Shown piece by piece: positions 5,197 through 45,064 of a stretch of DNA of 45,064 nt. Each line of letters opens with the position of its first letter. The stretch's first letter is position 1. This DNA comes from Verrucomicrobiota bacterium (GTDB lineage: Bacteria; Verrucomicrobiota; Verrucomicrobiia; Limisphaerales; UBA9464). Below the pieces are notes generated by a model, which was given only the letters and a program-made list of their open reading frames with translations, did not search any database and was not told where the DNA came from. Position numbers and translations under genes: made by a program. The stretch is taken from contig CANIZL010000052.1 of assembly GCA_947471985.1 (NCBI GenBank), positions 1 to 45,064 of the forward strand, written 5' to 3'.

Positions 5197-7884
5197 CTAT
5201 TGCGGCGAAAACAGATCCAACTGCGGTGGCGGCGGCAGTGATTTCAGGGACTCCCGATCCCGACGTCGTACCGTTTTGGGCCGCGCCGGTTTTTCTTCCG
5301 GAGCCGCGGCGGCATCGGCGGCGCCATCGCCTCCGAGGACGTGTTGGAGATTCAATTCCGCCTCCTCCAGGATGCGCAGGATTTCCTTCGCCCGCTCAAT
5401 CACCGGTCGCGGCACGCCGGCCAACCGCGCCACCTGGATGCCGTGACTCTTATCGGTCGCTCCCGGCAACACTTTGCGCAGGAAGATGAGTTGCTCCTGG
5501 TATTCACGGACCGCCACGTGGTAGTTGCGCACACGGGGCAACGCCGCGCGATGACCGACCGGATCGGAAGTTCCTTCCGCCACTCCCCCACCGACGCCCA
5601 GTCCTTCACCGGTTGGCGTGGAGCCCAATTCCGTCAGCTCATGATAATGCGTGGCGAAAAGCGTCTTGGCCCCCACCTGATGGTGCAGGTGCTCCACAAT
5701 GCTCCAGGCCAGACTGAGGCCGTCGAAGGTGCTCGTGCCCCGGCCAATCTCGTCCAGAATCACCAGGCTGCGTCGCGTGGCATTGTTCAGGATGTTGGCC
5801 GTCTCGCTCATCTCCACCATGAACGTGCTCTGCCCCCGCGCCAGATCGTCGCTGGCCCCAATCCGCGTGAAGATGCGATCAATCAGATCGATCCGTGCCA
5901 GCGCCGCCGGCACAAACGATCCGGTGTGCGCCAGCAAGCCCAGCAACGCCACTTGACGGATGTAGGTGCTCTTGCCCGCCATGTTGGGCCCGGTGATCAG
6001 CGCAATCTGTTCCGTGGCTGGATTCAACCGGGTGTCATTAGGCACGAAGCGCTCTTCGATCAGCGCCTGCTCCAGCACCGGGTGGCGACCGTCCCGCACC
6101 GCAAAGACGCCTTCATCGCCGACTTCCGGACGCATCCAGGAATGCAGGCGGGCGGTCTCGGCAAAGCCCACCAGGACATCCAACTGCGCCAGCGCTGCCG
6201 CCGTCTGCTGGATCGAGCGGAGATCCGCCAGCACCTCTTCGCGGACCTTGAGGAACAAATCGTACTCCAGCTTCGTCGCCCGCTCCTCGGCACCAAGGAT
6301 CTTGGACTCCATCGCCTTTAATTCCTGGGTAATGAAGCGCTCGCCGTTCGCCACGGTCTGCTTGCGGACATAGTCGCCGGGGACCTTGGCCAGATTCGCC
6401 TTGGTGACTTCGATGAAATATCCGAAGACGGAATTGAACCCGACCTTCAGCGACGGAATGCCGGTGCGGACAATTTCGTCCTGCTGCAGCTTGGCCAGCC
6501 AATCCTTCCCGCCGCGACTGGCGTTGCGCAATTCATCCAGCTCCGGACTGAATCCATCCCGGATGAGCCCGCCCTCCTTGAGCGCGAGCGGCGGTTCGTC
6601 GGTGATCGCCCGCTCCAGCAATTCAATGAGCGCCGGGAGTTCCGTAATCTCGGCCAGCAACGTCGCCAGCAGCGAAGTCCCGGATTCCCCCGCGTCCGGC
6701 GTCACGTCCCGCAGGGTCGCCCGCAAGGCCGGCAATTGTTGCAGCGCCAAACGAAGCCCCAGCAGATCCCGGGCATTGCCGGAACCCAGACTGAGCCGAC
6801 TCAGCATCCGCTCCAGATCCTTCACCTCCACCAAGCGCGCCCGGAAGGCCTGCAGGGCCGCAGTCTGGGTGAGCCAGACGGACACGGCATCCTGTCGCCG
6901 CTGGATCGGCTCCACGGCCGCCAGCGGTTGCGTCAACCAATCGCGCAGCCGCCGGGCGCCCATGGGCGTCACGGTCCGATTCAAGGCGCCGAATAACGTG
7001 GTGTTGCGCGGAGAATCGCGATGCAGCGGTTCCAGGATTTCCAGATTGCGCAGCGAAATGCCGTCGAGAATCAGGTAATCCGCGACTTGATAGCAACTGA
7101 GCCGCGTGAGATGCCCGACATCACGCCGCAGTTGCTGCGTCAAATAATGCAACACGGCGCCCGCCGCGCCGATCGCCGCCGATCGCCCCTTCAACCCAAA
7201 GCCATCCAGGGACGCGACCTTGAAATGTTCGCGCAAGGTGAAGACGGCCGTCTCCGGTTGAAACGTCCAATCCTCGTAGGTCACCAATTGTGCCCCGGAA
7301 GCGGAGTGCCGGGGACCCGATTCATGCTGCCGACCCAACAATTCGGTGAGGGAGATCGCCTCGGCCGGCACCAGCAACTCCGCCGGCCGCAACCGGTCGA
7401 GTTCCGCCAGGAGTGTCTTGCCCGCGTCGAGCTCAGTAACTCGAAAATCCCCCGTCGTGAGATCCACCAAGGCGAGACCGAAGGTACTGCCCACCGCACA
7501 GACCGCCGCCAGGAAGTTGTTCCGCTCCGCCTGCAGCAGCCGGTCATCAAAGTGCGTGCCCGGCGAGAGGATGGAGGTCACCTCGCGTTGCACGAGTTTG
7601 CCGGGCTTGGCGTCCTCGGTCTGATCACACACCGCCACCTTGCACCCATTCTTCAGCAACCGGGTGAGGTAATTGTTCGCCGCATGATACGGCAGCCCGC
7701 ACATCGGCACGCCGTTGCGCGCGGTCAGCGTCAGATTCAACAGCGCCGACGCCTGAGTCGCGTCCTCGAAAAACAGCTCGTAGAAATCCCCCAGCCGGAA
7801 CAACAGCAACGTGCCCTTCGGCAGACCGCCCTTGATGCGGCGATACTGCGCCATCATCGGAGTCAGCTGGGGCTCGGCAGACAT
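5197..7884 (-). CDS. mutS: DNA mismatch repair protein MutS
   Basis: The 895-residue protein carries the mismatch-recognition motif in FRLGDFYELFF near residue 30, with the Phe-x-Glu wedge. It has the Walker A GPNMAGKST at about 632, a Walker B/signature segment LVILDEIGRGTSTFDG near 705, and ATHYHELTEL near 745. MutS binds mismatches as a dimer and recruits MutL. The ATG at 7884 (MSAEPQLTPMM) is preferred over an in-frame TTG 36 bases upstream. An oddity is about 29 extra residues between HELTEL and the conserved PRVRNYHV (bases 5539-5625), rich in Gly and Glu (GEGLGVGGGVAEG), where homologues have only a few residues. The C-terminus is a Pro/Ala-rich tail ending in a QLDLF-like motif, a possible sliding-clamp contact. 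It lies 88 bases downstream of ndk. Confidence 0.97.
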   Translation of the reverse strand: MSAEPQLTPMMAQYRRIKGGLPKGTLLLFRLGDFYELFFEDATQASALLNLTLTARNGVPMCGLPYHAANNYLTRLLKNGCKVAVCDQTEDAKPGKLVQREVTSILSPGTHFDDRLLQAERNNFLAAVCAVGSTFGLALVDLTTGDFRVTELDAGKTLLAELDRLRPAELLVPAEAISLTELLGRQHESGPRHSASGAQLVTYEDWTFQPETAVFTLREHFKVASLDGFGLKGRSAAIGAAGAVLHYLTQQLRRDVGHLTRLSCYQVADYLILDGISLRNLEILEPLHRDSPRNTTLFGALNRTVTPMGARRLRDWLTQPLAAVEPIQRRQDAVSVWLTQTAALQAFRARLVEVKDLERMLSRLSLGSGNARDLLGLRLALQQLPALRATLRDVTPDAGESGTSLLATLLAEITELPALIELLERAITDEPPLALKEGGLIRDGFSPELDELRNASRGGKDWLAKLQQDEIVRTGIPSLKVGFNSVFGYFIEVTKANLAKVPGDYVRKQTVANGERFITQELKAMESKILGAEERATKLEYDLFLKVREEVLADLRSIQQTAAALAQLDVLVGFAETARLHSWMRPEVGDEGVFAVRDGRHPVLEQALIEERFVPNDTRLNPATEQIALITGPNMAGKSTYIRQVALLGLLAHTGSFVPAALARIDLIDRIFTRIGASDDLARGQSTFMVEMSETANILNNATRRSLVILDEIGRGTSTFDGLSLAWSIVEHLHHQVGAKTLFATHYHELTELGSTPTGEGLGVGGGVAEGTSDPVGHRAALPRVRNYHVAVREYQEQLIFLRKVLPGATDKSHGIQVARLAGVPRPVIERAKEILRILEEAELNLQHVLGGDGAADAAAAPEEKPARPKTVRRRDRESLKSLPPPPQLDLFSPQ

Positions 7885-10467: not shown

Positions 10468-10542
10468 GCCAGCGTAGCTCAGCGGTAGAGCAGGGGACTC
10501 ATAAGCCCTTGGTCGGAGGTTCGATTCCTCCCGCTGGCACCA
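10468..10542 (+). tRNA. tRNA with CAT anticodon (elongator Met or Ile2)
   Basis: A complete cloverleaf can be drawn. The acceptor stem pairs GCCAGCG (10468-10474) with CGCTGGC (10532-10538), with discriminator A and an encoded CCA (10540-10542). The D arm is GCTC/GAGC, the anticodon loop CTCATAA has CAT at 10500-10502, and the T arm GGAGG-TTCGATT-CCTCC is intact. The G1-C72 pair argues against initiator tRNA-fMet. A CAT anticodon can belong to elongator Met or to lysidine-modified Ile2, and this cannot be resolved by eye. The 3' end from the T loop onward is duplicated 1.6 kb downstream. Confidence 0.96.
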
Positions 10543-10546
10543 ACTT
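10518..10546 (+). repeat. tRNA 3'-end direct repeat, left copy (attL/attB-like)
   Basis: This 29-base segment, from the last two bases of the 5' T-stem strand through CCA plus four bases beyond, matches 12093-12121 with a single difference (T10535 versus C12110). The left copy keeps the tRNA intact. Such arrangements are typical of att sites used by tyrosine integrases. Confidence 0.7.
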
Positions 10547-10837
10547 CATAATCAGCGAGTTACGGTTAAAGACCGCGTAACTGCTATCGCCCAGCGCTAA
10601 CACCTGCCCCTTTTTCGGCTATGCTTGGGGACGTCGAAATCCACACGGGGAACGTTGAATCAACCGGGGTAGACCGCGGATCTGCTGGCGGTAGCCGATT
10701 CTGAGCCGCGGAAATGCTCCCCACCCCTGCCCTCCGCACAGTGAGAGTCCGAGGGACCGCGGGCTGTTTCCTTTCCCAACTTCCCGGGAAAATCCTTGTT
10801 GAATCAAGCCGATTCTGGGTAGTTTGGGCAAAATCGG

Positions 10838-11458
10838 ATGAATCTGAATCGAACGCTCTCTCGATTTCCCAACAGGAAGGCTGGAAGCGCCATGCTAGCC
10901 GCGACTGCAATTGCCTGTATGGGTGCCGACTTGCCGCGGGTGCTGACCTTCACAAACCGCATTGAATCGTTCACCAACGCGGCCGGCACGAAATTCGAAG
11001 CGGTAAGGATAACCAAGGTCAGCCCTGGCGGATTGCTTTGGGTTGGGACCAATGGGACCAAAGGCCGGGTGTTCCTCGTGGATCTGCCGGAGACTGAGTG
11101 CGCGCGGATTGGGGTGCCGGTGGGGTATCGGGAGAGGGCGGTGGCAGATTACGAGGCGGCGGCGGCGCGACTGAGGGCCGGAAACACCAACGGAGGCGAA
11201 ATCATAATAAAAACGCCGATTAAAGCCGTGCTGTCGGGTGCTGACGCCGAGGCTGAGATAGCAAAAACCAGAGAAGCAGCGCAGCACTTGCGACGTCGGA
11301 AATTCGTCGCCGCCAAAAAAGCGGGTGTGAGCATTACCGAAGATACCGAGGAGGCGATTATTGGACCTAACGCGCCCCTCATCGAAAACAAAGTGTGGGT
11401 TGATGGTTACTTCCGAAAAGACGGCACGCTGGTGAGTGGTCACTGGGAAGATAAATAA
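10838..11458 (+). CDS. Exported hypothetical protein with a GTKGRVFLVDLPE-type module
   Basis: The 206-residue protein has a basic start followed by a short hydrophobic stretch (AMLAATAIACMGA, about 18-30), suggesting a signal peptide. Residues 34-92 form a beta-rich module with VRITKVSPGGLLWVGTNG and GRVFLVDLPETE. Similar small modules, in which a residue-context phrase about a transcript or tag is followed by a glycine turn and a hydrophobic strand, are common in Verrucomicrobiota exported proteins of unknown function. A charged, Ala-rich middle precedes a C-terminal WVDGYFRKDGTLVSGHWE segment. I do not recognise a named family. The gene is alone on its strand inside the tRNA-flanked interval, and its lower GC and ATA codons suggest transfer or weak codon selection. 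Confidence 0.75.
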   Translation: MNLNRTLSRFPNRKAGSAMLAATAIACMGADLPRVLTFTNRIESFTNAAGTKFEAVRITKVSPGGLLWVGTNGTKGRVFLVDLPETECARIGVPVGYRERAVADYEAAAARLRAGNTNGGEIIIKTPIKAVLSGADAEAEIAKTREAAQHLRRRKFVAAKKAGVSITEDTEEAIIGPNAPLIENKVWVDGYFRKDGTLVSGHWEDK

Positions 11459-11644
11459 CCGACCCACCAGCCTCACCGCTCCCTTTCCGCCGCGAATCCA
11501 ACCGCCCAAAACCAGCGCCGCATCCTCCGGGCTGAACAGCCCCCGGTAATGCGTCAGCAGCACCCCGGCCATCTGGGCATGCGCGGGGTTTATGGATTCG
11601 TGCAGCAAAGCGCGGGAAACGGAAATGCGGTTTTCGTAACGTCC
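11459..11644 (-). pseudogene. Decayed gene fragment, unidentified
   Basis: After an in-frame TGA (11645-11647) the minus strand reads RYENRISVSRALLHESIN, then NPAHAQMAGVLLTHYRGLF, then SPEDAALVLGGWIRGG, with good GC3 and protein-like composition. It then runs into the antisense of the hypothetical gene, where it loses coding character. There is no start codon with upstream support. It looks like an internal piece of a real gene that was truncated at both ends. I do not recognise the family. Confidence 0.35.
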
Positions 11645-11647
11645 TCA

Positions 11648-12038
11648 CGCCTGCGGGGCGCCCGCATGGTAACCGGTTCCGTGACCTTCCACGCCCAACA
11701 GATTTCCTGACCGGGGCACCCCCGGGCCTCCCCCGGTGGGCTCCCATTGCACAGAAAGGCCCACCGCCGCGCTTTTGTTCGTCGGTTGAACCAATCCCAC
11801 CCGGCACGCTCGGCGCACGTCGGGACGCCATTTGGTGGGTTTTTACAATTCTTGCGCGTGCTCGGAATGGTCGCCACTCCGCTGGACCCAGCCCCGATCC
11901 CCGCAGGAAGAAATTCCTTTGATTAGCCCAAGTGCCCGCCACCCGTCCGCCGTGGCGGAATCATGGCGAAGACGTGGCGGAACCCGGCCAGACTGAAAAC
12001 CCCACCTGTCCGCCACCGCCAAACCCCTAGGGAATGTA
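11648..12038. other. Stretch without a convincing gene
   Basis: About 390 bases contain several mutually overlapping open frames of Arg/Pro/Gly-rich composition, none with family features. Short GC-rich imperfect palindromes occur around 11710-11750 (GGGGCACCCCCGGGCC and a GGGGG-rich partner). No RNA gene or clear promoter is seen. The following 12122-12305, beyond the right tRNA repeat, is likewise empty. Confidence 0.5.
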
Positions 12039-12087
12039 GCGGATGGCGGATGGCGGATGGCGGATGGCGGATGGCGGATGGCGGATG
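12039..12087 (+). repeat. Heptamer tandem repeat (GCGGATG)x7
   Basis: Seven perfect, uninterrupted copies of GCGGATG run from 12039 to 12087, followed within six bases by the right copy of the tRNA 3'-end repeat. A 7-base unit is not a multiple of three relative to any coding use here, and the array lies in non-coding DNA. Arrays of this kind vary in copy number by slippage. Confidence 0.95.
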
Positions 12088-12092
12088 AAGCC

Positions 12093-12121
12093 GGTTCGAT
12101 TCCTCCCGCCGGCACCAACTT
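12093..12121 (+). repeat. tRNA 3'-end direct repeat, right copy (attR-like)
   Basis: This copy of the T loop, 3' T-stem strand, 3' acceptor strand and CCA of the tRNA at 10468 differs at one position. Its upstream flank GAAGCC does not complete a T stem, and no matching 5' acceptor sequence precedes it, so it is not a functional tRNA. Confidence 0.7.
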
Positions 12122-12305
12122 TCAACTTCCGCAGATTTCCCGGAGCGCCGGCGACCTGCGGGCTCCCCTGAGATTCACGTGGGTTACACGATCCTCCGTG
12201 AGGTTGTCCGGTTCACCCGAAGAGGAGGCATCGATGTATTCGATGCGCCCCGTTAACCAGCACCTTTCCGGCAAAGCCGGGACTCCGAACCCGCCGTTCC
12301 CTGCC

Positions 12306-44926: not shown

Positions 44927-45064
44927 GGTGTCAGACACTTCCCGCAGCGCGGTGTCAGACACTTTACGCAGCGCGGTGTCAGACACTTTACGCAGCGCGG
45001 TGTCAGACACTTTACGCAGCGCGGTGTCAGACACTTTACGCAGCGCGGTGTCAGACACTTTACG
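44927..45064. repeat. 24-bp tandem array with GTGTCAGACAC palindromes
   Basis: Six copies start at 44927, 44951, 44975, 44999, 45023 and 45047 with a strict 24-base period. The last is cut by the window edge, so the array continues. Each unit has the perfect palindrome GTGTC-A-GACAC followed by TTTACGCAGCGC; the first copy has CCC where the others have TAC. There are no spacers, so it is not a CRISPR. The array sits directly upstream of the dehydrogenase gene. Confidence 0.95.

Follow-up and report, generated by a model that had tools for sequence, protein, structure and literature searches.

Several described classes of element resemble the locus reported here. CIMEs (cis-mobilizable elements) are presented, in the relevant passages of a Streptococcus salivarius study, as decayed relatives of ICEs and IMEs, from which they are by definition derived, and the classical CIMEs described there carry cargo and span 1.2-13 kb (PMC7563491). 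Tycheposons are characterized, in the sections of their description drawn on here, as tRNA-bordered elements of 4-200 kb with a tyrosine recombinase and cargo (PMC10872708). A third point of comparison is provided by PICI-/PICMI-like satellites. The literature that we searched contained nothing relevant to such elements in this bacterial group.

In the window, by which we mean the entire 45,064-nucleotide stretch of DNA analysed here, positions 10518-12121 are very probably what remains, after decay, of a small element inserted by a tyrosine integrase into the 3' end of a CAT-anticodon tRNA gene. Like a CIME, this remnant is flanked by att sites: its recombination sites survive, while its recombination genes are gone. 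Both att cores are kept, the left arm is degraded and the right arm is missing; the degraded left site sets the remnant apart from a CIME. It shares with Tycheposons a tRNA border, a link to tyrosine recombinases and cargo, but it is only 1.6 kb long and no recombinase was found in it. The likeness to PICI-/PICMI-like satellites, for which genes alone were compared, lies in the two intact relatives (6.3 and 9.5 kb), which encode, besides an integrase, a DnaB-like helicase in one case and a BT4734-like protein in the other, whereas the interval in the window has no integrase, helicase or BT4734-like gene. Set beside tRNA-targeting tyrosine-integrase elements as such, the locus has the far-side repeat of the tRNA 3' end and a degraded module beside the tRNA; it has neither the module at the other end nor the integrase gene, which an intact member needs.

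Results

The window carries one tRNA gene, at positions 10468-10542 of the forward strand (ARAGORN; Rfam RF00005, 68.7 bits), with a CAT anticodon and an encoded CCA. This is the attachment gene, and its 3' end is present twice. The left copy found by repeat comparison (10518-10546, forward strand) forms the attL core, and the right copy (12093-12121, forward strand), a displaced tRNA tail with one base changed, forms the attR core. The two are identical at 28 of 29 nucleotides, are spaced 1,575 bp apart, and correspond to the end of the tRNA with four further bases. No such 29-bp repeat is expected by chance, as judged from 100 shuffled versions of the window. When up to 3 mismatches are allowed, the 25-nt tail has just two occurrences in the bacterium's own genome (6.38 Mb in 180 contigs, 96% complete), both of them here. 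The duplication of the tRNA end about 1.6 kb downstream, proposed earlier in a sequence-only reading of this DNA, is thus borne out. The same reading had the right copy begin within the T arm, as it does, and lack the 5' T-stem strand entirely, which it does not: the last two of the five bases of that strand (10518-10519 of 10515-10519) are present in the right copy, so that most of the strand is missing, not all.

When 36 genomes were searched with this tRNA, whole genes were found and, in addition, partial 3' copies in four relatives (G012, G004, G025 and G022) and in the own genome. The partial copy adjoins a tyrosine-integrase gene in two of these relatives, G012 and G025 (PF00589 for G012), and in relatives the CAT tRNA has served for integration. 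Furthermore, two G012 contigs, C71 and C109 (L045 1314-1420 and L124), share exactly 107 nt starting from the first base of the tail. One of them holds the whole tRNA followed by the flank, and the other holds an integrase, the tail and the same flank; judging from these contig ends, they would be the unoccupied and the occupied site within one assembly. These tails beside tyrosine integrases, together with a module at the right distance from the tRNA in the window (see below), support the earlier suggestion of an integrase-borne insertion at this tRNA.

Two complete elements were recovered, both running from a tRNA-Phe gene to a perfect tail with the integrase at the far end: one of 9.5 kb in G012, encoding a BT4734-like protein, a Mutator-family transposase and a sulfatase-modifying-factor-like protein, and one of 6.3 kb in G026, encoding a DnaB-like helicase. 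The repeats of these intact elements reach 21 and 27 nt past the tRNA, against 4 nt in the window. We scanned 15 proteins, taken from the two intact elements and, in G012, G025 and the own genome, from integrase loci; none was assigned to a conjugation or relaxase family, and many of the open reading frames (ORFs) had no Pfam match. Related integrases (E <= 1e-25) occur in 17 of 58 genomes. The own genome has a single one, 36% identical, which lies on another contig beside a different tail and has no double repeat upstream; that contig (G000:C123; L120 5429-6568, with the different tRNA tail at about 6650-6700) also has a DnaG-like primase ORF. For the G012 integrase, no relative was found in viral_contigs, and one distant relative was found among phages (28% identity, in an Akkermansia phage). 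The integrase downstream of a tRNA-Met gene in G017 goes with a tail of the glycine type, oppositely oriented.

A module recurs beside these tRNA genes. In its intact form it reads GTGCTAAC-gccc-AGTGCTAAC, a double repeat with a spacer of 3-4 nt between the repeats. Across 58 genomes the exact pattern has 17 occurrences, spread over 11 of them, compared with one for a reversed control pattern, and in these relatives the module starts 39-41 nt past tRNA-Met, -Phe and -Gly genes. A 21-nt form was found in 16 stretches in genome_contigs, 12 of which have it on the same strand as a complete tRNA and 39-65 nt past it. The spacing is 39-41 nt in eight of these, which are contigs already covered by the 58-genome pattern search, and 62-65 nt in the other four, the only new ones; tRNA-Cys was added as a target. 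As for the remaining four stretches, two from one Clostridia-titled contig look like an inverted pair, one (L181) has a tRNA-like tail interrupted by the contig start, and one (L179) is without a tRNA. By record title, 13 of the 16 stretches belong to Verrucomicrobiota, two to Clostridia and one to Proteobacteria. No match to the module pattern was found in viral contigs. One left module, the GTGCTAAC double repeat, is shared by a family of small tRNA-targeting integrase elements at tRNA-Met, -Phe, -Gly and -Cys genes, as seen at L122 504-10126, L125 5949-12326, L045, L047, L121 and L132 and at the attL sites just described.

At 5 of 14 integrase starts the double repeat also separates the integrase from the tRNA tail, and two more have a near form (G026:C16 and G018:C42); it is absent from the other seven, among them the integrase of the own genome. 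An alternative reading of the module, as a conserved terminator, was set aside because the double repeat lies between integrase start and tail in these five cases and because it follows different tRNAs. The double repeat is a putative arm-binding site of the integrase.

In the window, an element-side attL module extends from the tRNA CCA to just past the double repeat (10540-10605, forward strand) and scores 24.4 bits (E 1.1e-6) against model R1. This model was built from 13 attL stretches, the window excluded; the stretches were chosen by eye once the motif had been seen, which makes the model independent of the letters of the window but not of the choice of motif. Within the module, the degraded double repeat, a putative integrase arm-type site, occupies 10580-10601 of the forward strand, reads ACTGCTATCGCCCAGCGCTAAC and starts 39 nt past the tRNA end. 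It has 3 mismatches in 22 positions, as opposed to at least 7 at every other position of the window on both strands, and no such match is expected by chance. All other R1 matches in the window score below 5 bits, including the one at the right tail (12115-12144; 2.3 bits, E 8.4). In the own genome, where 130 of 434 first-look candidates were scored, the window module (E 1.5e-4) is the sole match listed at E <= 0.5, and the exact double repeat was not found. Across the family, an R1 match is present in 18 of 39 genomes and absent in 21.

One clear ORF, of 206 aa (10838-11458, forward strand), lies between the two cores; it looks exported from a signal recognized by eye and is probably a cargo gene with foreign codon usage. 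Its codon adaptation score is 0.498, compared with a minimum of 0.627 among 51 length-matched slices of 19 neighbouring genes, and its GC3 is 0.63 compared with a minimum of 0.70 in the same slices, confirming the atypical codons remarked on previously. This ORF had no Pfam or PHROG match and a single NCBIfam match far under its cut-off. Weak relatives were found in 2 of 115 other genomes (90 and 104 residues aligned, at 24% and 29% identity), and none in genome_contigs, viral_contigs, phages or plasmids. An open stretch on the reverse strand (11462-11629), earlier taken for a truncated gene, has no match in 37 other genomes; since it matches itself alone among the 38, its status as a gene fragment is unproven. 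The absence of an integrase, also proposed before, agrees with our searches: when the frames of the interval were compared with the element regions, no integrase similarity was detected, and the three weak matches obtained (E 0.030-0.045), none of them at an integrase, are taken as chance.

At the right end, the place expected for an arm repeat is occupied by a 7-bp tandem repeat in seven copies (12039-12087, forward strand), which stops 5 bp before the tail and occurs once in the own genome (<= 1 mismatch). No double repeat was found before the right tail, the best candidate having 9 mismatches in 20 or 21 positions, and there is no R1 match there. Elsewhere in the window, a 24-bp unit is repeated 5.8 times (98% matches) at 44927-45064, reaching the contig end.

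To place the locus among related sites, we considered 25 tRNA sites, which include the window and not all of which carry the module. A matching tail lies downstream at four of them: the two intact elements, the window and a tRNA-Met site in G026. No tail was found at the other 21 within the stretch available, which was often ended by the contig end (the shortest being 519 nt); one of these, in G002, is not a fair test, its tail being shifted by two bases. With a tail at only 4 of the 25 sites, integrase-less pairs do not form a visible class in this sample. At the G026 site (L051 3196-8763), 5.5 kb separate a CAT tRNA from a shorter tail on the same strand; there is no integrase match and no module after the tRNA, and the sequences following tRNA and tail are alike. 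In G022 (L048 8278-9571), a CAT tRNA is followed after 1.2 kb by a displaced tail that derives from a different CAT tRNA; the sequence between them has one prepilin-like ORF, and a second docking-like motif with ACTAAGACT repeats follows both ends.

Finally, the surroundings of the locus were compared with those in other genomes. Homologs of the left neighbour, a methyltransferase, occur in 8 of 57 other genomes, and no tRNA was found within about 1.5 kb on each side in the nine methyltransferase-homolog loci. For the right neighbour, a putative glycosyltransferase, homologs occur in 6 of 57. The homologs in G011 and G012 are found less than 5 kb from the same tRNA, but on its upstream side, and gene order is therefore not shared with the window. 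Other window proteins gave only scattered matches to the tRNA neighbourhoods of relatives. Among the genomes searched, all of which lie outside the genus, the neighbourhood of the window was not found to be shared and no empty site was seen.

Discussion

Our combined findings argue strongly for a decayed remnant at 10518-12121, and insertion by a tyrosine integrase at the CAT tRNA is, at the level of sequence comparison, well supported. In the sequence of events that we infer, a tyrosine integrase would have placed a small element into the CAT tRNA gene, within its 3' end, so that the left boundary regained a complete tRNA end and a displaced copy of that end came to lie at the right boundary. 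Subsequent losses would have eliminated the integrase gene, the arm repeat on the right and most of the remaining genes; what survives is attL with its degraded arm repeat, one cargo gene and the decaying tail. The element is presumably immobile now. No gene of the intact elements is recognizable in the interval, so the attachment module is the one link through which descent from them is argued. Among described classes, the remnant fits best as a CIME-like decayed element, whether or not its parent was an ICE or IME.

Such a remnant could instead be a composite, its attL module stemming from one element and its right tail from another, with the two joined by a deletion. Tandem insertions occur at such sites, as in G022, where 1.2 kb separate a tRNA from the tail of another CAT tRNA, itself followed by a docking-like stretch, and in G012, where the flank past the tail holds an older module (20.5 bits). 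We nevertheless consider a composite unlikely: the window requires no second element, and nothing after its right tail exceeds the 2.3-bit module match.

The sequence-only reading had raised the possibility of a satellite mobilised in trans, that is, a non-autonomous mini-element still moved by an integrase that a related element encodes. The two core copies and a recognizable left module are still present, a gene with foreign codons lies between them, and related integrases exist in the family (in the 17 genomes noted above), all of which would suit such an element. However, no arm repeat precedes the right tail, the left arm is degraded, the exact double repeat is absent from the own genome, and the 25 sites reveal no class of integrase-less mini-elements. 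With the right-hand repeat missing, and the related integrase of the own genome paired with another tail and no such double repeat, we regard mobilisation in trans as unsupported and very unlikely. The same low standing applies to a minimal passenger that an integrase recognising GTGCTAAC could move in trans by means of the left arm and the two cores, as part of a cargo-only class with a shared module. Partial tRNA copies can also come from duplication, yet an old degraded tandem tRNA, which the sequence-only reading had itself named as the alternative to a mobile element, or a mere chance match is close to excluded, given that no shuffle reproduced the repeat, that the rest of such a tRNA could not be traced beside the tail, and that the attL module would go unexplained.

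The decayed remnant of an integrase-borne element is thus the reading that we prefer. As its docking site can still be recognized and the enzyme that moved it has been lost, the locus is an ordinary relic, and the docking module is the more useful by-product of its analysis. The module can serve as a search key for both intact and decayed elements where the integrase has been lost or contigs break. It marks insertions at several different tRNA genes, mostly in records titled Verrucomicrobiota, which suggests that one family of elements has conserved its left arm through changes of tRNA target.
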